The translations under genes were made by a program, and so were the position numbers. Positions 20,842 to 29,920 of a stretch of DNA of 29,920 nucleotides are shown here, one piece after another (the first letter of the stretch is position 1; each line of letters opens with the position of its first letter). The stretch spans positions 1 through 29,920 of IMG/VR virus record IMGVR_UViG_3300034082_001461; one strand, 5' to 3'. This DNA is from a virus. The notes below the pieces were generated by a model. The model was not told the DNA's origin. It saw nothing but the letters and a program-made list of their open reading frames with translations, and ran no database searches.

Positions 20842-21678
20842 ATGGCTATCGATCACAAGGAAATTAGCAAATGGCTATTTGACAAAGAAGTAGAGTTTGA
20901 ATCTCTCGACACATTTAAGGATGAACTATCTAAGCGTTATGTCTCTCGTGAGGTTGCTGCCGATGATGAAGACATTCGCAACAAGGTAACCGGGAAGACT
21001 CTCGGCACTCTTGAGACTAAGTTTAAACGCCAGTTTGGACTTACTGAAGAAGAAGTAAAAGGCAAGAAGCTTAGTGACCTCTTCGAGATTGCTGAGACGA
21101 AGCAGAAGGGATTGATTGATGACTTGCAGGCACAGATTAAAACGCCAGGTCAAACTCCCGAAGAGATTAAGGAACTGAAGGCTCAGTTGGAAGATGCTAA
21201 GAAGCGCAGCAAAGAGCAAGAAGAGCTTGCTGTTGACTTAGGCAAGAAGCTACAAGAGAACGAGGGCGAGTTCAATAATCGTATCAATTCGTATATGGCT
21301 GATATGGAATTGAACAAAGTGAAGTCTTCTATTCAATGGGCTGACTCAGCGAATCAATACGCTAAGAAAGGCTTTGAAATTGATATTGCAGAAAAGTTTA
21401 ACTTTGTGCTGTCTGATGGCAAGTTGATTGCTACCGATAAGGCTGGAAATCAGGTTAAGAATGAAAAGGGGACTGGATATATGACCCCTGAAGAAATTCT
21501 CCAATCTGAAGCCTCCAAAGCTGGATTAATTAAAAAAGCAGGAGAGGCAGGTTCTCAAACGGTAACCACCAACACATCTGTTCAGACAAATACTGGCTCA
21601 GGCAACGGAGCGCAGAGAAGGTTCATTCACCCACGGGCGCAAGGACATCTCGAAGCACTCGCAGCTGCTAAAGCTTAG
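20842..21678 (+). CDS. Capsid scaffolding protein (putative)
   Basis: A 278-residue, highly charged protein dominated by a coiled coil at about residues 85-160 (EEIKELKAQLEDAKKRSKEQ in the centre), followed by a small folded region and a flexible Thr/Gly/Asn-rich linker (about 235-260) with a basic end (RRFIHPRAQGHLEALAAA). This domain layout and the position immediately before the capsid gene match GP20-like scaffolding proteins, which guide procapsid assembly and bind the capsid through the C-terminal tail. No protease gene is evident, so the scaffold may exit intact. Confidence 0.77.
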   Translation: MAIDHKEISKWLFDKEVEFESLDTFKDELSKRYVSREVAADDEDIRNKVTGKTLGTLETKFKRQFGLTEEEVKGKKLSDLFEIAETKQKGLIDDLQAQIKTPGQTPEEIKELKAQLEDAKKRSKEQEELAVDLGKKLQENEGEFNNRINSYMADMELNKVKSSIQWADSANQYAKKGFEIDIAEKFNFVLSDGKLIATDKAGNQVKNEKGTGYMTPEEILQSEASKAGLIKKAGEAGSQTVTTNTSVQTNTGSGNGAQRRFIHPRAQGHLEALAAAKA

Positions 21679-21778
21679 TAATCGCACGACAAAGCTGTGT
21701 CTCGATGGACATTAAACATCGAAGTGTGCCTTGGCTGGGCAGTTAACAGCCGTTTAACAAAAACTTTGATTTTTAACA
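21679..21778 (+). promoter_or_regulatory. Leader of the major capsid gene with two hairpins
   Basis: The 100-base gap contains TCGATG / CATCGA (21702-21707, 21717-21722) and GGCTG / CAGCC (21733-21737, 21747-21751). An A/T-rich run (TTTAACAAAAACTTTG) then leads to the ATG. Such a structured leader could stabilise the message of a highly made protein; no clear promoter was found in it. Confidence 0.45.
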
Positions 21779-22813
21779 ATGTCTTACGCATTTTCTTCAT
21801 TCGTTTCTTGCCCTGATATTCAGGGCCGCATTGACGAGGGTTACTTTAAAGCAGACCCTACAATGTTCCCAGGCTTCATTAACACCTTGCGTGCCGTTAC
21901 ATCTCCGATGAACGAAGCAGGTATTTTGCAGAGCCAAATCGACTCAAAGAACGGTCACTACCGTGCTGTTGAAGTTGTTTACCAACCTCGTATGTCTGAC
22001 GCAGATACTTCAAGCTCTGCTGAACTTACTTGTGCTGCTGGTCCTACTTTTGGCGAGACCTCTAAGCTGTACACCATCGACCCTACCGAAGGTGCTTCAC
22101 GCAGCTGGTCTCTCTCTTTAGACCAACTCGCTCCACGTTGCGAAAGTGACGAGAACTATGTTGCTCGCCAATTAGCTATGCACATGCAAGCTATCAAGCG
22201 TTCAATCAACTCTGAGGCTGTATCTTTCCTTTCTACCAACTTTGGTAAATTGGCTGGTGGTGGCACATTGTTGACTACTGCCACTAAGAACAACACTACT
22301 GGTGTTTACTTGGATGACTACTTGAGCGATGTAACTTACGCTTACCAAGTTGCTGAAGGATGGGATCGTCCTATCATCATCGGTGGTGAGTTGACCCAAA
22401 AGTACATGACTGCTTTGAAGAGCCATTGCTGCGCTACTGTAAACGTAGACTTAGAGGCAATGATGCAGAGCGATGCTCAGTCATACTTCTTCTTCGAGCC
22501 TAAGGCTGACACTGTATTCGGTGCTGGTGAATTCGCATTCATGGCCCCTGGTGCTGTACAGATGCTTCGCTACAACGCTTTCAAAGGCGCACAAGGCATC
22601 CGTGTAATTGACGATGAGTCTATCAAAAAGGGTACTATCGTAGACCCTGAGACTGGCTTGGAGTTCGATTACTATGCTCAGTTGGATTGTAACACATGGA
22701 AGTTTTGGATGGGATTGAGCTACAAGTTTGTAACTCTACCTGAAGACATCTTCTTGACTACCGATGAGTTGCATGACGTTAACTACGTCTTCAACGGCAA
22801 GGTTTCTAACTAA
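21779..22813 (+). CDS. Major capsid protein (putative)
   Basis: A 344-residue protein, a normal length for an HK97-fold capsid subunit without a delta domain. It starts MSYAFSSFVSCPDIQGRIDE, has long helices around residues 120-145 (ARQLAMHMQAIKRSIN) that could be the spine helix, and a strand-rich C-terminal domain. The position after a scaffold, the structured leader, the terminator 23 bases after the stop and less AT-biased codons all point to an abundantly expressed head protein. Many Cys residues are spread along the chain. The fold is inferred; I do not see a diagnostic motif. Confidence 0.8.
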   Translation: MSYAFSSFVSCPDIQGRIDEGYFKADPTMFPGFINTLRAVTSPMNEAGILQSQIDSKNGHYRAVEVVYQPRMSDADTSSSAELTCAAGPTFGETSKLYTIDPTEGASRSWSLSLDQLAPRCESDENYVARQLAMHMQAIKRSINSEAVSFLSTNFGKLAGGGTLLTTATKNNTTGVYLDDYLSDVTYAYQVAEGWDRPIIIGGELTQKYMTALKSHCCATVNVDLEAMMQSDAQSYFFFEPKADTVFGAGEFAFMAPGAVQMLRYNAFKGAQGIRVIDDESIKKGTIVDPETGLEFDYYAQLDCNTWKFWMGLSYKFVTLPEDIFLTTDELHDVNYVFNGKVSN

Positions 22814-22835
22814 GTTTAGAAGGTTCGCAATTACG

Positions 22836-22864
22836 AGGGGTGCTGAAAAGCATCCCTTTTTTTT
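22836..22864 (+). terminator. Rho-independent terminator after the capsid gene
   Basis: AGGGGTGC (22836-22843) pairs with GCATCCCT (22850-22857), with one G-U pair, around TGAAAA, followed by T residues to 22864. Confidence 0.85.
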
Positions 22865-22868
22865 GTAT

Positions 22869-22876
22869 TAACTTTG
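22869..22876 (+). promoter_or_regulatory. TAnnTTTG element directly before the start codon at 22881
   Basis: TAACTTTG ends 4 bases before the ATG, behind the capsid terminator. The matching upstream TTTG is not evident (the position is taken by the terminator stem), so either a weak promoter with leaderless start or another start-linked element. Confidence 0.5.
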
Positions 22877-22880
22877 AGCC

Positions 22881-23882
22881 ATGAGTTGCTGGAATAATGT
22901 AATAGGTATAAGAGGGTTGTGCGAAGCGCAAGAACCTTCAAGCGGTCTGTATATAAACGACCTCACGGGTATCTCTATTCAAGACTTGAATGCAGGGGTA
23001 AACAGCGAGGATTCTACCGCATTTACGCTCATTCAGAGGAAGATTGACCAAGCTGCTACTATGATGCAGGCAGAGGCTTTATCTTACCTCTACAACCGCT
23101 GGAACTACACTACAAGCTCTTGGAACGGACAGATTGGATACTTCCCTGAGTCTTTACGTTCTTTAGGTGCTTCTGCTGTTTATAGAGGCATAGGAATGCG
23201 TTACCGCCAAGCAGACTACATTAGTGTATCTCTGAATGCTGTTACGCTTTTACTACCCGTTACGGCTACGATTAACGTATTGGTGGTTGACCTTATTACG
23301 GGGACCATCTTGGACACCATCCCGGTGAATGCCATTGCTAATAAACAAATTCGTTTAGTTACTAATAAGAAATACGCCAGCAATGGGCAGATGCTTAATT
23401 TAGCTGTTGTGTACAATGCTACATCTGTTGCTTCTTTTCAGACAGGTCTTTACCCTACTTATAACTGCGGAAGCTGCGGAAGAAACTATCGCTGGTATGA
23501 CAATATGCTTGAGCGGACCATTGAAATCCCTACAAGCGGATCTATCCTTGAGCAGAACATTAGCGGTGGAAGCTGGACTGGTGGCTTGAGTATAGACTAC
23601 CAAGTGGCTTGTAGCTTCGAGAGCCTTCTATGCGCTCATATAGGGCAGCTAGGCTATCCTTTGCTCTACAAGGCTGGAATGCTTATCTTGAAGGAGATGG
23701 AGTTCTCTAAGCGTCTTAATGGCGTTATCTCTTACAACAGAGAGCGCAACCAAGAGTTAGGCGAATACTACCAAGCGCAGTACGATGCTTATATGCAGAG
23801 ATACTTTGATGCAGCGCAGCTACCTCAGAGTGGATGTTTTTCTTGTAAGCAGAGAGTAAGGCAGGCAAGCCGAATCCCATGA
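22881..23882 (+). CDS. Head-tail connector / neck-region structural protein (putative)
   Basis: A 333-residue protein with an N-terminal segment (CWNNVIGIRGLCEAQEPSSG, residues 3-22, then LYINDLTGISIQDLN) that I have seen as a recurring pattern in phage contigs of Bacteroidota next to capsid genes. Helices at about 50-75 are followed by a beta-rich middle. Cys pairs occur in YNCGSCGRNYRW (about 195-206) and in GCFSCKQR near the C terminus. Its place between capsid and the HK97 gp10-like gene corresponds to the head-completion or adaptor proteins of other siphoviruses, but no homology is shown. Its stop overlaps the next start (ATGA). Confidence 0.62.
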   Translation: MSCWNNVIGIRGLCEAQEPSSGLYINDLTGISIQDLNAGVNSEDSTAFTLIQRKIDQAATMMQAEALSYLYNRWNYTTSSWNGQIGYFPESLRSLGASAVYRGIGMRYRQADYISVSLNAVTLLLPVTATINVLVVDLITGTILDTIPVNAIANKQIRLVTNKKYASNGQMLNLAVVYNATSVASFQTGLYPTYNCGSCGRNYRWYDNMLERTIEIPTSGSILEQNISGGSWTGGLSIDYQVACSFESLLCAHIGQLGYPLLYKAGMLILKEMEFSKRLNGVISYNRERNQELGEYYQAQYDAYMQRYFDAAQLPQSGCFSCKQRVRQASRIP

Positions 23883-24469
23883 CCCCTGAGCAATTCATAG
23901 CGCAGCTTAAAAGACAGAAGAGTACCTTACAAGCGGCAGCAGAGCAGTCTTTAGAAGAGGCAGCTAAGGCTACGCATATGAAGGTTTCTTCTCGCATCTT
24001 TATCCAAGGTAAGGCTGCTGATGATAGTAAGATAGGCAACTATTCTACCAAGCCATTAGTGGTTTCTAAGAAGTCTTTCGTTAATAAGTCTGCTTTTAAG
24101 CAAAGCCAGCGACCTAACAAAGGAGGTGGCACTCGCCCTATGTTTATTAAGTTTCCTAACGCCAAGAAGGCTACTCCCGTTATGGTGTTGCCTGGTGGAT
24201 ACAAGCAGTTAAAGCAGATACAGAACCTTAAAAGCCAGTATGTGGACTTGATATACACGGGAAGAACGCAGAGGGCATTTATAGGCTCTCTACGGAAGTT
24301 TGGAAGGTATGGCTGGGCAGCAATACTCCGAGGCACTAAAACTGCTGAGAAGGCTGTATTGAACGAGAATAAGTTTGGCAAGAAGATATTCGCCTTGACT
24401 AGGGAAGAGGAAGTATTCTTCACTAGGCGGTTTGTATCCACCTTCAATAAGAAATCTCAAATAACGTAA
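23879..24469 (+). CDS. HK97 gp10-like / virion morphogenesis protein
   Basis: A 196-residue, very basic protein (MTPEQFIAQLKRQKSTLQAA at the start). It has an N-terminal helix, a flexible Lys/Gly-rich middle (SQRPNKGGGTRP) and a core GYKQLKQIQNLKSQYVDLIY followed by TGRTQRAF (about residues 101-130), reminiscent of phage morphogenesis proteins of the Mu G / HK97 gp10 group that take part in the neck or tail completion. It lies between connector and tail-terminator candidates. Coupled to the previous gene by ATGA. Confidence 0.65.
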   Translation: MTPEQFIAQLKRQKSTLQAAAEQSLEEAAKATHMKVSSRIFIQGKAADDSKIGNYSTKPLVVSKKSFVNKSAFKQSQRPNKGGGTRPMFIKFPNAKKATPVMVLPGGYKQLKQIQNLKSQYVDLIYTGRTQRAFIGSLRKFGRYGWAAILRGTKTAEKAVLNENKFGKKIFALTREEEVFFTRRFVSTFNKKSQIT

Positions 24470-24474
24470 CTTTG
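24467..24474 (+). promoter_or_regulatory. TAnnTTTG element directly before the start codon at 24480
   Basis: TAACTTTG overlaps the stop of the previous gene and ends 5 bases before the ATG. No upstream TTTG is seen at proper spacing. It repeats the arrangement at 5011, 14582, 22869 and 25615. Confidence 0.4.
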
Positions 24475-24479
24475 AGGAT

Positions 24480-25076
24480 ATGATAGTAACGGACATTACG
24501 AGCGAGATATTTGAGAGGCTGAAGCAATATCAGCTTGTTAAGCATTACGGCTTTGCGGAGATGCTTCCCGATGGGGATGCTACTATCCCTGCTGTATATT
24601 GCTCTAATGGCGATTATCGGCACGTTATAAACGATTACGAGTGGACTGAGGGCATTGCCTACATCCGCTACAATGGAGCAGAGAATACCACTTTGGTAGA
24701 CGAGGTCTTTATAGGCTGCCAAGACTTGCTTAATACTGTCTTCCCTATGCGCTTAGTGGTTATAGGCAAGAGGAAAGGGCAGAAACCTTACGAGGTAGCT
24801 TCTCTGATTAAGAGTAAGATTACCGGTATGTACGAGAACCTTGCCCAAGCTTACGGAGCAGTCTATGTAGACATTACCGCTGCCTCTGTGCAATACGATA
24901 TACGGGTTAACTTAAACTCCGAGTTTGATGGAGCAGACATTGCTTGGGACACCGAGCTGTACATTATCTCTGTTGATCTTAACATAGAAGTTCGTGGTGA
25001 TGCCACTTGCTTGAACGACTTAGAGCCTTGCGCTACAAGAATATTTGATAACACTTTTGACCAAACATTTAACTAA
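24480..25076 (+). CDS. Tail terminator / tail completion protein (putative)
   Basis: A 198-residue protein beginning MIVTDITSEIFERLKQYQLV. The alternating helix-strand layout (a first helix, then YCSNGDYRHVINDYEWTEGI, later ASLIKSKITGMYENLAQAYG and SVQYDIRVNLNSEFD) is like that of tail-completion proteins that cap the tail tube and link it to the head. Position after the gp10-like gene supports this. The stop shares a base with the next start (TAATG). Identification is by context; no diagnostic motif is present. Confidence 0.58.
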   Translation: MIVTDITSEIFERLKQYQLVKHYGFAEMLPDGDATIPAVYCSNGDYRHVINDYEWTEGIAYIRYNGAENTTLVDEVFIGCQDLLNTVFPMRLVVIGKRKGQKPYEVASLIKSKITGMYENLAQAYGAVYVDITAASVQYDIRVNLNSEFDGADIAWDTELYIISVDLNIEVRGDATCLNDLEPCATRIFDNTFDQTFN

Positions 25077-25609
25077 TGGGACAGCTACTTACAGATGCGT
25101 TAGTAATTAAGAACGAAACGCTTTCGGGCGCAAACACCGCAACGAGAGTTGGTGGATGGATGGAAGACGCTGCTACATACATTGAGGAAACACCGAGTGT
25201 GTTAAACTTCTTTGACTTTGCTACTGAAGGCACTACTGTCTTAACGCAAGATGTTTGGTCACCTTTAAACGCTACCATTACGGTAGGATTTAGCAGAAAC
25301 GGATTAAGTGTTAATACTGCTGGACTCGTAACTTATACTGGTCCGCAGAAGTACTTCCGTGTAAGCTTTATTGCTGCTGTATTGGCTCAGACAAATAGGA
25401 AAGTGCATATTGCCTTGTTTAAGAATGGGCAGCTATGGCCTTGCTCTGAGTTTGCTCAAGCAGCAGGTTCTGTTAGCGAGGTAACCCTTCCAGGTCAATG
25501 TGTAGTCCCTTTATCTACGGGAGACACTATCCAAGTTTACGTTAAGTGTTCTACCCACGCCATTACGATTACCTTGGATAACTTGAATGTGATTATTAAC
25601 GAGTTTTAA
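25076..25609 (+). CDS. Fibre protein with C1q/TNF-like jelly-roll C terminus (putative)
   Basis: A 177-residue protein. Residues 1-40 (with NTATRVGGWMED at about 20-31) resemble short attachment regions of fibres in phages of Bacteroidota. Residues 90-177 form an all-beta domain (KYFRVSFIAAVLAQTNRKVH, then IALFKNGQLW) ending in GDTIQVYVKC and DNLNVIINEF, the strand pattern of C1q/TNF-like jelly rolls used by phage head or tail fibres. It probably trimerises on the virion surface and binds the host or stabilises the particle. Coupled to the previous gene by TAATG. Confidence 0.65.
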   Translation: MGQLLTDALVIKNETLSGANTATRVGGWMEDAATYIEETPSVLNFFDFATEGTTVLTQDVWSPLNATITVGFSRNGLSVNTAGLVTYTGPQKYFRVSFIAAVLAQTNRKVHIALFKNGQLWPCSEFAQAAGSVSEVTLPGQCVVPLSTGDTIQVYVKCSTHAITITLDNLNVIINEF

Positions 25610-25614
25610 ATTGC

Positions 25615-25622
25615 TAAATTTG
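25615..25622 (+). promoter_or_regulatory. TAnnTTTG element directly before the start codon at 25627
   Basis: TAAATTTG stands in the 17-base gap between genes and ends 4 bases before the ATG. No TTTG is found 17-21 bases upstream, so promoter strength is doubtful. Confidence 0.45.
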
Positions 25623-25626
25623 CAAC

Positions 25627-26130
25627 ATGGCATTATCCAAGCTCACTAACTACGTCCTAAGCGACAGCTTCATTAGGCTCGACTATGCTGATGGTCGGCA
25701 ATGGTATGTCCCTTATGGACAAATCATAGCTACGTTAATTGACCCTACGAGCGGTCAGTACATTGCTAAGTTGTTTGAGAAGGGATTGGTAGGAGAGACT
25801 TTGGAAGCTACCCAGGCTGACTTAGCTGCTTTAGGCACTAACGTACAAGCCTTTATCGATGCTTTGAATACTATCCTTAAAAACTTTAGCTTTTGGACTT
25901 CTATATATGAGGATTACATGAGCAGAGCTGCTACTGACGGAGGAAGCGTAGATACGAGGTTCAATTCAAGATGTGCTAAGTCCACTTTCATAGAGGATAT
26001 GCCAACTGCTACTGACGAGTACGTTTTAGTTTGGAACACTCAGACAAGGTCTTTAGCTGATGGTGGAAACGGATTCGATGCTAGATCCCTTGATTGCTCA
26101 TATGAAATTGCAGAAGAAATATTAAACTAA
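25627..26130 (+). CDS. Small tail-fibre-associated protein (RLDYADGRQ family), long form
   Basis: A 167-residue protein. Residues 17-25 read RLDYADGRQ, followed by VPYGQIIATLIDPTSGQYIA and a FIDALN segment near 75, a module found again in the gene at 28773-29030 (RLDYADGRQ, IDPTTGIY, ALGT, LN). Beyond residue 85 this copy has an extra C-terminal domain (TSIYEDYMSRAATDGGSVDT and on). The two copies flank the fibre genes, so the module may be an attachment piece or fibre-cassette protein. Function unknown; the internal paralogy is clear by eye. Confidence 0.68.
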   Translation: MALSKLTNYVLSDSFIRLDYADGRQWYVPYGQIIATLIDPTSGQYIAKLFEKGLVGETLEATQADLAALGTNVQAFIDALNTILKNFSFWTSIYEDYMSRAATDGGSVDTRFNSRCAKSTFIEDMPTATDEYVLVWNTQTRSLADGGNGFDARSLDCSYEIAEEILN

Positions 26131-26137
26131 AAGAATA

Positions 26138-27322
26138 ATGGCTACACCATCCTTATATATTGCCCCTGATATGCTGAAAGCTGGAAAGCTTTACTCGCAG
26201 CTACCTCCTTCAGGCGCAGGTGACTTCACGGTAGTACGCAACACTACTGCGACTCGTGTTAACGCTTCGGGGTTGATTTCGAGCGTGGCTGCCAACGTAC
26301 CGAGGATTGATTACACTGGCGGTGGATGCGGAAGCCTTTTAGTTGAGCCTGCTGCGACTAATTTAGTTTTAAGGAGTGAGGAGTTTAGCGTATCAGGAAC
26401 TTGGGCGCAGGTTGATACGACAATTACGGCAAACGATTTTACAGCACCTAACGGCACAATGACCGCTGACCGAATGAACATAGCAGGTCAAAATAGCAGG
26501 GTAACACAAAGTTTTTCATTGGGAGCGACTACGGTTACTTTTAGCATTTACCTTTATAGTGCTGTATCTTTTACATTGAGAATTGTTGCGGTCGTTGATG
26601 GCAGTAATGTTAGCAGAAATATTACCATAACTGCTGGGCAATGGACAAGGTTTGCTGAAACATTTACTTCAACTGCTACTATTACAAGCGTAGCGGTAAG
26701 GGGGTTAGCTGGCGGTAGCACGGGAGACATCTTCCTTTGGGGCGCACAACTCGAAGTCGGCTCAGTCGCTACCTCCTACATACCCACGGTCGCAACGACA
26801 CAAACCCGTAATGCCGATGCAATATCCCTAACGGGCGCATCTGCTTTGATTGGACAAGCGAGCGGTACTGCTTACGTTGAATTTACATATAGAGGTGCGC
26901 CAACAATTAGAAGTGGTCCGCTTTATTTAAGACAAGCCACCCTTAGAGGTATTAGTTTAAGTTACGCTTCAGCTGTTGGGGGGATTGAGGTGTTATCACG
27001 CAATAATGCAGGCACTGCTTTTATCACCGCTGTGTCAGGAACGCTTCAAATAGGCACTAATTACAAGATAGCTATTGCATACGATGCAGCAGGTACAGCA
27101 GCAGGCGGAACTCGGGTTAACGGCATAACTATTTATGTCAATGGTGTTCTTGCTGCAACTGGTAATTTTCAAGTACCTGATGCGGCAGGTTTAAATGACA
27201 TATGGTTCTATGGCGCAAATTCTTCTACCGAGGCAGAAGCATTTAATGGGCGCATCAACACCGCTGCCCTCTATCCGACTCGTCTTACTAACGCTGAACT
27301 CGCAGCACTAACCACCTTATAA
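26138..27322 (+). CDS. Tail fibre / adhesin with carbohydrate-binding and LamG-like domains, copy 1
   Basis: A 394-residue protein. The N-terminal module (residues 1-85: SGAGDFTVVRNTTATRVNAS, then PRIDYTGGGCGSLLVEPAAT) is a hallmark of adhesin-like proteins in phages of Bacteroidota. Residues about 85-215 look like a carbohydrate-binding beta sandwich ending in LWGAQLEVGSVATSYIPT, and residues 225-394 look like a LamG/concanavalin-like domain (YVEFTYRGAP, then INTAALYPTRLTNAELAALT). It likely binds surface glycans of the host. It is followed by a paralogue with TAATG coupling. Identity with copy 2 is high at both ends and low in the middle. Confidence 0.82.
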   Translation: MATPSLYIAPDMLKAGKLYSQLPPSGAGDFTVVRNTTATRVNASGLISSVAANVPRIDYTGGGCGSLLVEPAATNLVLRSEEFSVSGTWAQVDTTITANDFTAPNGTMTADRMNIAGQNSRVTQSFSLGATTVTFSIYLYSAVSFTLRIVAVVDGSNVSRNITITAGQWTRFAETFTSTATITSVAVRGLAGGSTGDIFLWGAQLEVGSVATSYIPTVATTQTRNADAISLTGASALIGQASGTAYVEFTYRGAPTIRSGPLYLRQATLRGISLSYASAVGGIEVLSRNNAGTAFITAVSGTLQIGTNYKIAIAYDAAGTAAGGTRVNGITIYVNGVLAATGNFQVPDAAGLNDIWFYGANSSTEAEAFNGRINTAALYPTRLTNAELAALTTL

Positions 27323-28452
27323 TGGCTACACCTTCACTACTAATAATCCCCGACCGCTACAAAGCAGCGAAGCTATACTCACAAATCCCCGAATCGGGGG
27401 CAGGTGACTTTACCGTTACAAGAGGCACAACGGCTACCCGTGTGAACGCTTCGGGACTAATCGAATCCGTAGCATCGGGAGTGCCGAGGATAGACTATAC
27501 TGGAGGGGGTTGTGGTAGCTTGTTGGTCGAGCCTGCTGCTACTAATTTGGCTTTGTACAGCGAAGATTTTACCCAAGCCGTATGGGCGAAAACGGTAAGC
27601 GCATCAGTATCGGGCAACACAACGGTATCGCCTGATGGAACGACAACGGCAGACACTTTTACAGCAGGTGCAAATGGCAGCCAAGTGCAGCAAGTTTTTG
27701 TAGGCGTATCAGGAACGACTTATAATGTTTCTTTTTATATTAAAAGAAGAACTGGCAGCGGAGTAGTAAACATTCGTGCAGTTGAAAATGTTAATACACC
27801 TATAACAATTACCAATAATTGGACAAGGGTTTCTTTGTCTGCAACAGCTACGTCTACCTCTATTAGGGTAGGATTAACGCTTGCAACTTCAGGTGATGCG
27901 GTTGACATTTGGGGCGCACAACTTGAAACAGGCAGCGTAGCCACATCGTACATCCCTACCGTAGCAACCACACAAACCCGTAACGCTGACGTTATCTCTC
28001 TCTCATCCGTGAGTGGGTTGATTGGGCAGACCGAGGGAACTTTGTATGCGGAGGTAGATGTAAGTAAATTACTTGGCACAGTTGTCAGGGGAATGTTAAC
28101 AATTAGCAATAACACCACAGCCAATAGGATTCAAATTGGATTTACTGGTGCATCTGCAAATACTATCAGGGTAATTTATTCGGGAGCATCAACACTAAAT
28201 TACAATTTTGCTATAACAACTACTGGCATTTACAAGATAGCATTTGCTTACAGCGCATCTTCTACTGCTTTTTATGTCAACGGTTCTTTAGTTTCTGCTT
28301 TAGGTGGAAATTCATTTTCTGCCTCGGTTGGAAATGTTTATTTAGGTTCAGTTTTTGACGGAACTTCTGCCCTGAACGACCGCATATCCGCAGCAGCAAT
28401 ATACACATCTCGCCTTTCAAATTCTGAACTCGCTCAACTCACAACCTTATGA
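27322..28452 (+). CDS. Tail fibre / adhesin, tandem paralogue, copy 2
   Basis: A 376-residue paralogue of the preceding gene with the same order: N-terminal module (GAGDFTVTRGTTATRVNASG, PRIDYTGGGCGSLLVEPAAT), central beta sandwich ending in GSVATSYIPTVATTQTRNAD, and LamG-like C terminus (FYVNGSLVSALG, RISAAAIYTSRLSNSELAQL). Shared protein segments use many different synonymous codons, so the duplication is old or the copies came from different sources. Two adhesins may widen host range or form a hetero-oligomeric tip. The stop overlaps the next start (ATGA). Confidence 0.82.
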   Translation: MATPSLLIIPDRYKAAKLYSQIPESGAGDFTVTRGTTATRVNASGLIESVASGVPRIDYTGGGCGSLLVEPAATNLALYSEDFTQAVWAKTVSASVSGNTTVSPDGTTTADTFTAGANGSQVQQVFVGVSGTTYNVSFYIKRRTGSGVVNIRAVENVNTPITITNNWTRVSLSATATSTSIRVGLTLATSGDAVDIWGAQLETGSVATSYIPTVATTQTRNADVISLSSVSGLIGQTEGTLYAEVDVSKLLGTVVRGMLTISNNTTANRIQIGFTGASANTIRVIYSGASTLNYNFAITTTGIYKIAFAYSASSTAFYVNGSLVSALGGNSFSASVGNVYLGSVFDGTSALNDRISAAAIYTSRLSNSELAQLTTL

Positions 28453-28733
28453 TAAAGAAATACGAATTTCCGACAAAAGAAAAAGCACTTGCTGAACTAA
28501 ACGCAACAAGCGAGCAAGTAGGCTTCCTCCAAGTAGAAGGCGCAGAGAATGCCGTTGACCTTGGGCATATCACTTTGGTAGATGCCGTAATGGATGGCGA
28601 GAAGGTAGTAACCCCTGCGGTCTTATCTCAAGGCTACTGCGTGGATGTGATGTGGACTATTGCACCTCCTGCTCACTTGAGTAAGTACGAGGTTGCCCCA
28701 AAAGTATCAAAGCACGGCTTCAGCGAAAGCTAA
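28449..28733 (+). CDS. Small protein following the fibre genes
   Basis: A 94-residue protein (MIKKYEFPTKEKALAELNAT at the start) with an N-terminal helix, then mixed strands (VDLGHITLVDAVMDGEKVVT) and a hydrophobic centre (CVDVMWTIAPP). It is coupled to the second fibre gene by ATGA. Small genes in this position can encode fibre-assembly factors or minor virion proteins, but no motif supports either. Family not recognised. Confidence 0.66.
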   Translation: MIKKYEFPTKEKALAELNATSEQVGFLQVEGAENAVDLGHITLVDAVMDGEKVVTPAVLSQGYCVDVMWTIAPPAHLSKYEVAPKVSKHGFSES

Positions 28734-28772
28734 TAACTTAATTTGTATTACCTTAGTACCAAATTATAAACA

Positions 28773-29030
28773 ATGGCAGCTTTACCATCATTGACAGCAT
28801 TCAACTTCGGCACAGAGCAGTTAAGGCTCGATTACGCTGACGGAAGGCAGTATTTCTTAAACTACAAGGACATTGTAGGAGTGCAGATTGACCCGACTAC
28901 TGGCATTTATGTCGTTCGTATCTATCCTTCGGGAGAGGTGGGTGTATCTATCTCCGTTGCAAACCCTGACTTAATAGCTTTAGGCACTACCTACACGGCA
29001 TTCGTTTCTACCCTTAACTCCTACCTCTAA
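28773..29030 (+). CDS. Small tail-fibre-associated protein (RLDYADGRQ family), short form
   Basis: An 85-residue paralogue of residues 1-85 of the protein at 25627-26130: RLDYADGRQ (18-26), VGVQIDPTTGIYVVRI, GEVGVSISVANPDLIALGTT and a final FVSTLNSYL line up without large gaps. It lacks the extra C-terminal domain. It begins after a 39-base gap with an A-rich leader (TTATAAACA) and ends by sharing a base with the holin start (TAATG). Function unknown. Confidence 0.72.
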   Translation: MAALPSLTAFNFGTEQLRLDYADGRQYFLNYKDIVGVQIDPTTGIYVVRIYPSGEVGVSISVANPDLIALGTTYTAFVSTLNSYL

Positions 29031-29353
29031 TGCTACAAGTTAAGCAGTTCCTACTCGAAATCGGAATAAACATCGGCATGGCTCTTAGTGGCTTTTTTGG
29101 CAGCTTACTCTTAGTAGGCAAGCAGAAAGACGCTGACATCCGTACACAGCTGTTCTCTGTAATCGCAGGCACTCTTAGCGCAAATTACGTTACTCCACTT
29201 GTAGTGGATATTGCCAACCTCGATATGCAGTCTGCTCAGTTTGCTATCGCATTCTTAGTAGGCTTTGGAGGTTTGAAGCTTGTTGAGCATTTAGATGCTA
29301 AGTACATCCATCCTATTACTAAAGTAAAGGAAGATGAGAGCGACTCTAACTAG
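29030..29353 (+). CDS. Holin-like membrane protein
   Basis: A 107-residue protein with three hydrophobic segments at about residues 11-30 (IGINIGMALSGFFGSLLLVG), 40-60 (QLFSVIAGTLSANYVTPLVV) and 69-87 (AQFAIAFLVGFGGLKLVEH), and a charged C terminus (KVKEDESDSN). Size, topology and the next gene, a putative lysis protein, fit a holin that opens the host inner membrane at the end of infection. Small-residue faces in the helices also suit oligomerisation. No family motif was identified with certainty. Confidence 0.68.
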   Translation: MLQVKQFLLEIGINIGMALSGFFGSLLLVGKQKDADIRTQLFSVIAGTLSANYVTPLVVDIANLDMQSAQFAIAFLVGFGGLKLVEHLDAKYIHPITKVKEDESDSN

Positions 29354-29759
29354 GATTCACCACGAAGAGAAGCAGACAAGAGGTACTCTTCAAATCTTTA
29401 ACAGAGACAATAAGAAGATCTTCGAGTGCTTAACCTTAGAACTCCCTTGGAAGAACAACGAGCGTAAAGTTTCCTGCGTTCCGGTAGGAGAGTATGATGT
29501 TGTCCCTCGTGTTTCTCAGAAGTATAGCAAGCATTTGCATTTATCCAATGTGCCAGGTAGAGACCTTATTCTCATCCACCAAGGCAATTACCATACAGAC
29601 ATCCTTGGCTGCATTTTAGTAGGCAGCAGGTTCTCTGATATAAACAAAGACGGAGTACTGGATGTGCTTAACAGCAAAGCCACTATGAAGTCATTAATGT
29701 CTACCGCTCCAAAAGGATTCACTTTAACCATTATAAATCATGCCACTCAAGCAAGCTAA
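29334..29759 (+). CDS. DUF5675 protein, probable lysis-module enzyme
   Basis: A 141-residue protein that I recognise as DUF5675: GTLQIFNRDNKKIFECLTLE (17-36), PWKNNERKVSCVPVGEYDV (38-56), PGRDLILIHQGN (74-85) and DILGCILVG (89-97). The invariant-looking H82 and C93 resemble the His and Cys of L,D-transpeptidase-like active sites, and the family often sits in lysis modules, so peptidoglycan cleavage is plausible but not proven. It overlaps the holin-like gene by 20 bases. The family call is sure, the activity inferred. Confidence 0.83.
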   Translation: MRATLTRIHHEEKQTRGTLQIFNRDNKKIFECLTLELPWKNNERKVSCVPVGEYDVVPRVSQKYSKHLHLSNVPGRDLILIHQGNYHTDILGCILVGSRFSDINKDGVLDVLNSKATMKSLMSTAPKGFTLTIINHATQAS

Positions 29760-29901
29760 AGGAAAAAGCAAGAAAGCCATGTCTAAGGCTGTTTCTTCAA
29801 ACATCTCAGAATTGACTACTGCAAATAAGTCAAAGCCTAAAGGCAAGAAAAGAAGTGCAAAGCAAATTGCTGCTATCGCTTATTCTGCTGCTAGAAAATG
29901 A
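29740..29901 (+). CDS. Small basic phage protein
   Basis: A 53-residue, Lys-rich protein (MPLKQAKGKSKKAMSKAVSS at the start) with a C-terminal AKQIAAIAYSAARK helix. Very similar short proteins with a KSKKAxSKN...QAVAIAYS layout are common in phages; none has a proved function, and DNA binding or virion packaging has only been supposed. It overlaps the end of the DUF5675 gene by 20 bases, and its stop overlaps the next ATG (ATGA). Confidence 0.72.
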   Translation: MPLKQAKGKSKKAMSKAVSSNISELTTANKSKPKGKKRSAKQIAAIAYSAARK

Positions 29902-29920
29902 GAAACCCTCTAAATTATTT
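29898..29920 (+). CDS. Start of a further gene, cut by the window end
   Basis: An ATG at 29898 overlaps the previous stop (ATGA) and opens MRNPLNY before the window ends. The coupling matches the rest of the operon, so a gene probably continues beyond the window, but only seven full codons can be read. Confidence 0.45.

Follow-up and report, generated by a model that had tools for sequence, protein, structure and literature searches.

Two adjacent phage fiber genes that likely share an old duplicated chassis and four exchangeable domain slots

The window analyzed here (i.e., the whole stretch of 29,920 nt, positions 1 to 29,920 of IMG/VR virus record IMGVR_UViG_3300034082_001461) carries two adjacent putative fiber genes, A and B. 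We consider it likely that they form a modular fiber pair that arose by an old duplication and holds four exchangeable cassette slots, the contents of which are swapped between phages by homologous recombination. Each copy would consist of a conserved chassis (i.e., an N-terminal attachment module, a joint, and a C-terminal tail) and two exchangeable domains (i.e., a central carbohydrate-binding-type beta-sandwich and a LamG/CBM40-type beta-sandwich), giving four slots for the pair. That phage host recognition is modular is already known; this locus offers a natural pair of strains with all four cassettes exchanged, along with another phage carrying exact copies of single cassettes.

Tandem fiber genes alike in protein and different in codons

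The products of both genes (Table 1) matched PHROG 34853 (A, E = 7.9e-41; B, E = 6.1e-46) and PHROG 5939, "tail protein" (A, E = 3.6e-36; B, E = 4.6e-43). The labels of their PHROG matches are mostly "tail," with one weak "minor head protein." Pfam Laminin_G_3 exceeded its cutoff in both A (E = 1.2e-8) and B (E = 2.8e-6; 28.0 bits versus a cutoff of 27.6). The stop codon of A is overlapped by the start codon of B (TAATG).

An earlier note on this DNA had described the genes as tandem fiber paralogues alike in protein but different in codons, and the alignment bears this out. Over their full length, 190 of 364 aligned residues are identical (258 bits, E = 1e-78, far above chance) at a DNA identity of 54.8%, and the codon differs at 114 of the 186 identical degenerate residues. 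The segment PRIDYTGGGCGSLLVEPAAT lies at residue 55 in both proteins (12 of 20 codons and 13 of 60 nt differ), and GSVATSYIPTVATTQTRNAD lies at residue 208 of A and 204 of B (13 of 20 codons and 15 of 60 nt differ). Amino acid and nucleotide identities are 83% and 66% in the N-terminal module and 92% and 71% in the joint, versus 35% and 52% in the central domain and 34% and 47% in the LamG part; the divergence that the note had seen in the latter two is thus evident. The longest exact run shared by A and B is 16 nt, and their joints are 78% identical over 82 nt.

Table 1. Coordinates of the gene pair, its chassis pieces (anchors) and cassettes, and the partner gene in the window
Feature	Position	Strand	Observation
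ORF A	26138..27322	+	394 aa, fiber/adhesin, first copy
ORF B	27322..28452	+	376 aa, fiber/adhesin, second copy
A N-terminal module (anchor 1)	26138..26359	+	95% nt identity in L007; 91% over last 174 nt in L005, first 48 nt unmatched
A central cassette, beta-sandwich	26360..26735	+	376/376 nt identical in L005 and L049; no L007 match
A joint (anchor 2), holds GSVATSYIPTVATTQTRNAD	26736..26869	+	L005, 96% over 125 nt; L007, only 57 nt (26804-26860), 95%
A LamG cassette	26870..27250	+	Laminin_G_3; among fetched loci, DNA match in the window's own phage only
A C-terminal tail plus B N-terminal module (anchor 3)	27251..27548	+	97.3% (L005) and 91.3% (L007) over 298 nt
B central cassette, carbohydrate-binding-type beta-sandwich	27549..27905	+	Best DNA match, 70.6% over 293 nt (L126); none in L005, L006, or L007
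B joint (anchor 4)	27906..28062	+	99.4% L005; 86.8% L007; 78.1% L006
B LamG cassette	28063..28374	+	312/312 nt L005; 94.5% of 311 nt L006; no L007 match
B C-terminal tail (anchor 5)	28375..28452	+	89.7% L005; 84.6% L007; 76% over 59 nt L006
Partner gene, 94 aa	28449..28733	+	Start overlaps B stop (ATGA)

In the structure model of A, residues 81 to 210 were modeled confidently (pLDDT blocks of 78 to 90), residues 1 to 60 were not (34 to 49), and the LamG part was poor. In the model of B, the central part (residues 72 to 220) resembled a Pa193 baseplate/tail-fiber chain (VIA Z = 15.0), an arabinanase domain (Z = 15.2), and several CBMs (Z = 13.5 to 14.3), and the LamG part (residues 226 to 376) resembled a sialidase CBM40 (VIA Z = 15.7). 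The cassettes are therefore predicted to have a carbohydrate-binding (CBM/LamG) fold, which by itself shows no function; the two fibers are probably glycan binding. The 94-aa partner gene is a candidate fiber assembly or accessory protein gene. A homologue follows within 1.5 kb in 76 of 154 genes with the N-terminal module, where one homologue in a tandem pair is scored for both genes, and 27 of the other 78 genes have no room for one.

Age of the duplication

Synonymous sites in the chassis are saturated (NG86 pS, 0.81 in the N-terminal module and 0.82 in the joint), while dN is low there (0.19 and 0.10, respectively) and high outside. The observed nucleotide identities (0.657 in the N-terminal module and 0.705 in the joint) are close to those simulated with random codon choice (0.648 and 0.699); the codon differences are thus what saturation predicts. 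On the basis of these comparisons, the N-terminal module, joint, and C-terminal tail of the two genes appear to be products of an old duplication, and the note's proposal of an old duplication under strong protein-level constraint at the attachment and joint regions is supported. Nearest relatives with a low synonymous distance, which the note had named as evidence against its reading, were not what pairwise dN/dS by domain returned: the copies are near relatives, but at a saturated synonymous distance.

Trees were built by quick searches (113 rows for the N-terminal module, 70 for the central domain, and 65 for LamG), and two constrained trees exceeded the free one in likelihood. For the N-terminal module, which gives few columns, the AU test did not reject a single clade uniting both copies from three phages (p = 0.78), nor a separate A clade (p = 0.79) or a separate B clade (p = 0.46). 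The evidence from this tree is moderate, since in the free quick tree the B copies were not resolved, A was nested within them, and a long-branch copy (L018) also fell inside (support, 88).

Given the saturated synonymous sites, a recent gene conversion between the two copies is ruled out. So is selection for additional codon divergence, as the identity equals that of random codon choice; since the divergence is no greater than this, the low DNA identity looks like a consequence of age more than of detectable selection. Codon usage marked neither copy as foreign: A and B (-1.241 and -1.253) differ to a similar extent from the 19 other genes of the window that were compared (-1.018 to -1.157).

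Exchange of single cassettes among relatives

The A/B pair was found in three distinct phages (i.e., that of the window, L005, and L007); L007 and the single-copy relative L006 are each represented by one assembly. L007 is a close strain (97.0% identity over 21385-26362 and over 28378-29920) that keeps the anchors, and all four of its cassettes are without a DNA match to the window. L005 has a different backbone, with a match of only 161 nt upstream of the pair, yet it is identical to the window without interruption over 459 nt (A, central) and 482 nt (B, joint and LamG). The similarity breaks off abruptly at the chassis borders, and each chassis piece matches its own slot best: the same slot gave the best match in 12 of 12 comparisons of anchors (covering N-terminal module, joint, and tail), and the longest exact runs were 16 to 20 nt in cis versus 62 to 482 nt between same-slot copies. 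The alignments indicate that, in these relatives, each cassette was replaced without regard to the others or to the backbone. The alternative in the note, that one copy was acquired from another phage, is not supported in that form, because single domains and not whole copies were exchanged among the phages compared.

Independent combination of cassettes was also found in the wider family, i.e., in the 91 proteins with a recognized joint among 154 distinct proteins with the N-terminal module (the 63 without the joint motif were left out). In single full-length pairs, LamG was 96% identical over 447 nt with no match in the central domain (L008/L009), the central domain was 95% identical over 477 nt with a LamG match of only 57 nt (L080/L121), or the N-terminal module and LamG were 100% and 95% identical with the central domain at 65% (L110/L116); the full set of 207 pairs also includes ones with a missing or truncated LamG. 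For the type-2 central domain, the best 80 of 202 loci were used. Their selection patterns cover the end of the N-terminal module, which inflates the proportion of loci with this module in front.

Phylogeny by domain, as the note had proposed, was in part consistent with exchange. The duplication clades of the N-terminal module were not rejected, while a central-domain clade of the B copies (p = 0.0045) and a LamG clade of the A copies (p = 0.0035) were; a LamG clade of the B copies was not rejected (p = 0.43). The three A copies grouped together in the central tree (support, 42), but two of them are identical and that of L007 has a very long branch, and this join may be false. The L007 A central cassette scored 1.9 bits against the central-domain HMM, under the best shuffled decoy (5.2 bits); the A central slot thus accepts a different or unrecognizably diverged domain. 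No cross-slot move of a cassette was seen among the three A/B phages, and the L006 copy is not assignable to a slot. Scans with the A LamG cassette and with the L007 B central cassette returned only their own phages, and a scan of genome contigs with B found no relative.

An old duplication followed by rapid divergence in place under host-surface selection, without cassette transfer, would also leave the chassis with low dN and saturation at synonymous sites and the remainder with high dN, and it agrees with the unrejected LamG clade of the B copies. This explanation is improbable, however, as it can yield neither the 376/376- and 312/312-nt identities of single cassettes on a different backbone nor the loss of all four DNA matches in a 97% strain. 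It is already contradicted by these identities and losses, unless the contigs concerned are chimeric. The records are indeed metagenome contigs, and exact stretches of at least 100 nt (113 nt in the A anchor) exist, across which an assembler could have joined the cassettes of different phages from a strain mixture. We regard such an artifact as very unlikely: two more records repeat the arrangement of the window (100% over 9085 nt and 99.98% over 9783 nt), L049 (99.98% identical to L005 over 5404 nt and ending inside A) has the same A N-terminal/central junction as L005, and cassettes mix independently among many other contigs.

Diversity-generating retroelements and DNA invertases typically target variable receptor domains that adjoin a constant N-terminus. 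Such programmed variation is hardly credible as the source of the variable domains here. Strains differ by the replacement of whole domains, not by point changes limited to a variable repeat. The ORFs scanned (30 of the 48 listed for the window and 8 downstream; the genome is incomplete) included no reverse transcriptase or invertase, and inverted repeats in 24400-29920 amounted to five weak pairs (18 to 23 nt; 73 to 89%).

Relationship to known fibers

The fibers are homologous to the head-spike fiber Rcc01080/GhsB of RcGTA from Rhodobacter capsulatus (PDB 6tb9; profile E = 1.3e-46; single-sequence E = 3.8e-17 for A and 1.8e-15 for B). The likeness begins at residue 31 of both A and B and covers the second half of the N-terminal module, the central domain, and the joint. 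Relatives in phages RcapMu and RcWaterboi are annotated as tail fiber or tail proteins. Unlike A and B, Rcc01080 (325 aa) stops soon after the joint and so has no LamG domain, and the two copies side by side are a further difference. Tagged RcGTA fiber reportedly attached to wild-type cells with a capsule and scarcely to a mutant lacking it (PMC10218006). The N-terminus of Rcc01080 is described as docking in a base pentamer by an Ile/Leu-Gly repeat (PMC7296036); by eye, this repeat is absent from A and B, which begin MATPSL. The ORF at 25076-25609, considered as a neighboring jellyroll base protein like Rcc01079, gave a BclA_C match (E = 0.0036) that is below the cutoff and no PDB sequence match.

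The TSP1-4 clusters of Ackermannviridae (Kuttervirus), as portrayed in PMC8432352 and PMC11414711, likewise combine adjacent receptor-binding genes, conserved N-termini, and exchangeable receptor modules, and slot-specific conserved N-termini in adjacent genes are what the same-slot matches of A and B show. The TSP receptor modules are beta-helices, reported in more than one TSP type (PMC8432352); A and B differ in having two cassettes per gene, whose confidently modeled parts are predicted beta-sandwiches. The LtfA/LtfB genes of the T5-like phages DT57C and DT571/2 are also tandem fiber genes with related regions, both with receptor domains, and host range was switched through recombination within ltfA (PMC4728585). 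Recent exchange of fiber domains between phages was reported by Smug et al. 2023 (PMC10684548), whose survey, in the sections considered here, compares single proteins, whereas A and B are a duplicated two-cassette chassis followed at the DNA level. Exchange of domains between phages at high identity, with a common conserved N-terminus, is seen in the A/B family as well.

Proposed mechanism and insulation of the slots

Cassettes would be replaced by homologous recombination inside the chassis DNA of coinfecting phages, a process that an Erf-like annealing protein of the phage itself may drive. Downstream on a sister contig, outside the window, lie an Erf-like protein (a C-terminal piece only, at the contig end) and a match to a Holliday-junction-resolvase PHROG. 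A and B may no longer recombine easily with each other, their chassis DNA having drifted to codon saturation. The payoff would be a combinatorially changing set of glycans for the virion to bind. An Erf/exonuclease pair handled a range of divergence that covers the A/B joints (PMC3945230), so the insulation may leak.

The note had suggested that low DNA identity would prevent loss by recombination. The 16-nt limit on exact A-B runs and the accidents in high-identity tandem fibers (PMC4728585) agree with this; selection is not detectable, and the protection is possibly incomplete. Insulation of the slots by DNA divergence is plausible. That the difference was itself selected, more-alike chassis variants having been lost by copy deletion, seems to us unlikely, although several observations fit. 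In all 14 of 14 tandem pairs with the N-terminal module, module nucleotide identity is 41 to 68%, and the longest exact runs are 11 to 38 nt (27 nt or less in 12 of 14), with four pairs comparing fewer than 50 codons. LtfA/LtfB, in contrast to A and B, have long DNA repeats and were fused by deletion in one isolate (PMC4728585), and an added tsp5 recombined with tsp4 (PMC11414711). However, a divergence equal to random codon choice shows no excess, and age alone explains it; moreover, the tandem sample came from a search at the protein level, and short-read assemblies can break at long repeats.

Returning to the modular pair, we tentatively, and with some doubt, extend it to a four-slot display insulated from internal recombination, in which the chassis would provide same-slot landing pads, codon divergence would separate the copies, and four glycan-binding domains, including ones of different families, could be shuffled without gene loss. 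It makes the testable claim that protein-conserved, DNA-diverged chassis copies permit exchange with other phages and not within the genome. If true, it would give a rule for predicting stable tandem fiber genes and a way of reading host-range potential from metagenomes. If the insulation is false, there is still clear cassette exchange on an RcGTA head-spike-fiber chassis, here joined to LamG domains. The pair suggests how such viruses keep changing what they attach to. Our literature searches found no paper on this gene pair, and to our knowledge, a DNA-level look at how phages keep two near-duplicate adjacent fiber genes has seldom been taken.

Mismatch and G+C patterns around the cassettes

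In favor of exchange, 65 of 613 positions within 100 nt of cassette edges are mismatched between L007 and the window versus 25 of 884 farther out. The gradient is uneven (19/240 at 1 to 30 nt, below 31/186 at 31 to 60 nt), and the backbone at 25385-25884 also has 50 mismatches in 500 nt. Similarity in the A joint stops at 26869 in both the L005 and the L007 comparisons; such shared end points may mark where protein constraint ends rather than crossovers.

G+C content was compared in 83 usable proteins, 77 of them with enough flank; the proteins are related and the counts are not independent. Also in favor of exchange, G+C content at 4-fold sites is lower in the cassettes than in flanking ORFs (central, 69/77; LamG, 67/77). 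It still tracks the backbone (Spearman, 0.65 and 0.62); thus, low cassette G+C content may partly reflect relaxed codon use. GC3 of the N-terminal module exceeds that of the central domain in 83/83 proteins. Raised chassis G+C content as a sign of GC-biased conversion was rejected, since the N-terminal module is above the flank in only 38/77 (p = 0.36) and the cassettes are the low part. The mean internal G+C step is 0.185 in 88 fibers versus 0.022 in 125 flanking control ORFs.

Among the 10 listed of 663 matches, the terminase of the window phage had its highest scores with a Bacteroides phage and Flavobacterium phage 11b.

Gene layout and predicted function

The 29,920-base virus record also encodes terminase, tape measure, and portal proteins. 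The stop of the fibre ORF A overlaps the start of ORF B (TAATG) and that of B overlaps the start of the next gene (ATGA), overlaps from which we infer that the three genes are probably translated together. Both proteins match PHROG 34853 and PHROG 5939 ("tail protein") and end in a Laminin_G_3 domain. Below, the N-terminal module, joint, and C-terminal tail are called the chassis (its conserved pieces being anchors), and the central domain and LamG part are called cassettes.

Features of the fibre region of the window
Feature	Position	Length	Remark
Gene upstream of flanking gene	25076-25609	177 aa	tail-fibre PHROG matches, weak BclA_C match
Upstream flanking gene	25627-26130		paralogue of downstream flanking gene
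ORF A	26138-27322	394 aa	adjoins B
ORF B	27322-28452	376 aa	adjoins A
Gene after B	28449-28733	94 aa	possible fibre assembly partner
Downstream flanking gene	28773-29030		paralogue of upstream flanking gene

The two flanking genes share 35 of 83 residues, and the fibre pair is thus enclosed by a second, likewise diverged pair. Homologues of the 94-aa gene lie downstream of 76 of 154 N-terminal-module genes (27 of the remaining genes have no room, and a tandem pair counts one shared copy); similarity to the counterpart at this position in Nonlabens phage P12024S is weak (E = 3e-4).

Among solved structures, Rcc01080, the head-spike fibre of RcGTA, is nearest by sequence (profile E = 1.3e-46). 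As reported in PMC10218006, tagged Rcc01080 bound encapsulated cells and hardly bound a capsule-less mutant; PMC7296036 describes only residues 2 to 10 at high resolution in the particle, the remainder being flexible. Homologues of rcc01080 are noted in phages RcapMu and RcWaterboi (PMC8601537), in which relatives of the fibre protein carry tail protein annotations. Clues to the location of A and B conflict: most PHROG names point to the tail, but Rcc01080, the closest relative of solved structure, belongs to a head spike, and its N-terminal docking repeat is absent from A and B. The model of B contains two high-confidence beta-sandwiches, with low confidence in the N-terminal module (pLDDT blocks, 33 to 47) and joint (36 to 56). 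Structural matches of the central sandwich include an arabinanase domain (Z = 15.2), a Pa193 baseplate/tail-fibre chain (Z = 15.0), and several CBMs, and the LamG sandwich matches a sialidase CBM40 (Z = 15.7); such a predicted CBM-type fold does not prove sugar binding. The model of A is confident in the central domain and poor in the LamG part.

Age of the duplication

A and B share 190 of 364 residues overall, and different codons are used at 114 of 186 identical degenerate residues. The amino acid/nucleotide identities are 83/66% in the N-terminal module, 92/71% in the joint, 35/52% in the central domain, and 34/47% in the LamG part. The earlier note had described the copies as alike in protein, different in codons, and divergent in the central and LamG parts; these values bear it out, as do its two 20-residue segments, which occur in both copies with codons differing at 12/20 and 13/20 positions. 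Synonymous differences (NG86) are saturated in the N-terminal module (pS = 0.81; dN = 0.19) and similar in the joint (pS = 0.82; dN = 0.10). When both proteins were fixed and codons drawn at the phage's own frequencies, the module was expected to have a nucleotide identity of 0.648 and the joint 0.699, against 0.657 and 0.705 in the actual sequences, where the longest exact runs are 11 and 14 nt, respectively. Age alone thus accounts for the DNA difference between A and B, and this agreement rules out both recent A-B conversion and extra divergence beyond age.

In AU tests on a tree of 113 N-terminal modules (few columns), neither a single clade uniting A and B copies from the three phages carrying the pair (the window, L005, and L007; P = 0.78) nor a separate A clade (P = 0.79) or B clade (P = 0.46) was rejected. 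The free quick tree did not cleanly resolve A from B and placed a long-branch L018 copy beside A. A single duplication predating the split of the three phages is the simplest reading, with moderate evidence.

Exchange of cassettes between phages

The window and L007 represent strains of one phage (97.0% identity over 21385-26362 and over 28378-29920). The L007 N-terminal modules (A, 95%; B, 90%), joints (A, 95% over 57 nt; B, 87%), and tails (A, 96%; B, 84%) match the window, and none of the four cassettes has a DNA match (E limit, 1e-4). The backbone of L005 differs, only 161 nt upstream of the pair matching the window, and yet its A central cassette (376/376 nt, within a 459-nt exact run) and B LamG cassette (312/312 nt, within a 482-nt exact run) are identical to those of the window; no DNA match was found for the A LamG part or the B central part of L005. 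The 161 nt start at 25044 and cover just the start of the 177-aa gene, several kilobases of other sequence then preceding the fibre pair in L005. The junction between the A N-terminal module and central cassette of L005 recurs in another record, L049 (99.98% identity over 5,404 nt), which ends inside A. In the more distant single-copy locus L006, the B LamG cassette is 94.5% identical, but the joint (78%) and tail (76%) are less so. The L005 and L007 comparisons give the same similarity edges to within 1 nt (26869, 27251, and 27548/27549); these edges may reflect the limit of protein constraint and not crossover positions.

The trees of the cassettes support independent combination in part. 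Single clades of the three phages were rejected for the B central (P = 0.0045) and A LamG (P = 0.0035) copies and not for the B LamG copies (P = 0.43); the window B central domain groups with L126 and L129. The A central copies already fall together (support, 42), two of the three being identical and that of L007 being a very long branch. Judged from these sequences, the old duplication proposed in the earlier note, with an acquired copy as its alternative, holds for the chassis (saturated pS), while the differences between the copies lie in cassettes moving between phages. Fibre modularity is known, and this locus is a clearly delimited example whose form is unusual (two cassettes per gene, two genes, and slot-specific DNA).

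Slot fidelity and a possible exchange mechanism

In 12/12 comparisons (L005 and L007; two copies each and three anchors per copy), the anchor found its best match in the window at the same slot. The longest exact runs between same-slot copies of different phages were 459, 482, 113, and 62 nt, those across slots were 15 to 20 nt, and those between A and B in cis were 16 (window, whole genes), 20 (L005), and 18 nt (L007). L005 A has no match to window A over its first 48 nt, and its first residues are B-like in protein; the anchors are thus mosaic as well. Among 14 tandem pairs from 13 loci (four pairs compare <50 codons), the N-terminal modules show 41 to 68% nucleotide identity and longest exact runs of 11 to 38 nt (≤27 nt in 12/14). 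The hazard of alike tandem copies is illustrated by reports of the fusion of ltfA and ltfB through deletion in DT530(1) (PMC4728585) and of recombination between an added tsp5 and tsp4 in phage S117 (PMC11414711). Insulation of the slots by codon divergence is an attractive possibility, consistent with the comparisons except for one stretch of the joints.

Cassette exchange may be driven by an Erf-like annealing protein, which is encoded (Pfam ERF match at E = 2.4e-8; truncated by the contig end) on a sister contig that extends the window downstream (99.98% over 9,783 nt), together with proteins matching Holliday-junction-resolvase and DNA-repair-exonuclease PHROGs. For the Erf/exonuclease pair of D3, recombination of DNA with 78% identity is reported to be about as efficient as with lambda Red (PMC3945230). 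The same-slot anchors of L005 and L007 (84 to 99%) are inside this range; the identity between A and B mostly falls short of it (module, 66%; joint, 71%), but 82 nt of the joints, the excepted stretch, reach 78%. Scans of 30 of the 48 listed window ORFs and of 8 downstream ORFs revealed neither an invertase nor a reverse transcriptase, and 24400-29920 contains only weak inverted repeats. On L206, a C5 cytosine methylase (L206:11587-13122; 511 aa) lies beside the Erf-like gene, which the contig end truncates; PHROG 116 aligns to its residues 1 to 501 with only 283 profile positions, and it therefore seems to carry a large insert.

If chassis DNA adjoining a cassette came in with it, mismatches should be raised near the edges; mismatches to L007 are in fact denser within 100 nt of cassette edges (65/613) than beyond, to 600 nt (25/884; Fisher P = 7e-10). 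However, the innermost 30 nt are less divergent (19/240) than the next 30 (31/186), and the backbone at 25385-25884 is equally divergent (50/500), so we regard the gradient as supportive only. Shortly before the fibre pair, 24885-25884 is unusually divergent from L007 (85 mismatches in 1,000), and the variable region may therefore begin upstream of A.

Generality and composition

The first 88 residues of B were searched against viral contigs, and the best 80 of 424 relatives were kept. Cassettes combine independently across the 91 proteins in which a joint was recognised: L008/L009 (96% over 447 nt) and L093/L100 (95% over 452 nt) have LamG parts in common without a central match; L008/L097 (89% over 465 nt; N-terminal module, 73%) and L080/L121 (95% over 477 nt; LamG match, 57 nt only) have central domains in common; and L110/L116 are 100% identical in the N-terminal module, 95% in LamG, and 65% in the central domain. 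The L007 A central cassette scored 1.9 bits against the central-domain HMM, below the best decoy (5.2) and so no match, and belongs to another widespread domain; the chassis thus seems, from these profiles, to accept domains of different families. The N-terminal module precedes this domain in 89/91 ORFs (best 80 of 202 loci), a sample biased by search patterns favouring such cases.

Four-fold-site G+C content is lower in cassettes than in flanking ORFs (central, 69/77; LamG, 67/77), and that of the N-terminal module is at the flanking level (above it in 38/77); ordinary flanking ORFs show no such internal step. Since cassette G+C content follows that of the backbone (Spearman, 0.65 and 0.62), its low level may partly reflect relaxed codon use.

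The second, widespread central-domain family, to which the L007 A central cassette belongs (L211 to L290), often has its own joint variant, and one contig carries three tandem N-terminal-module genes (L018:4710-8706).
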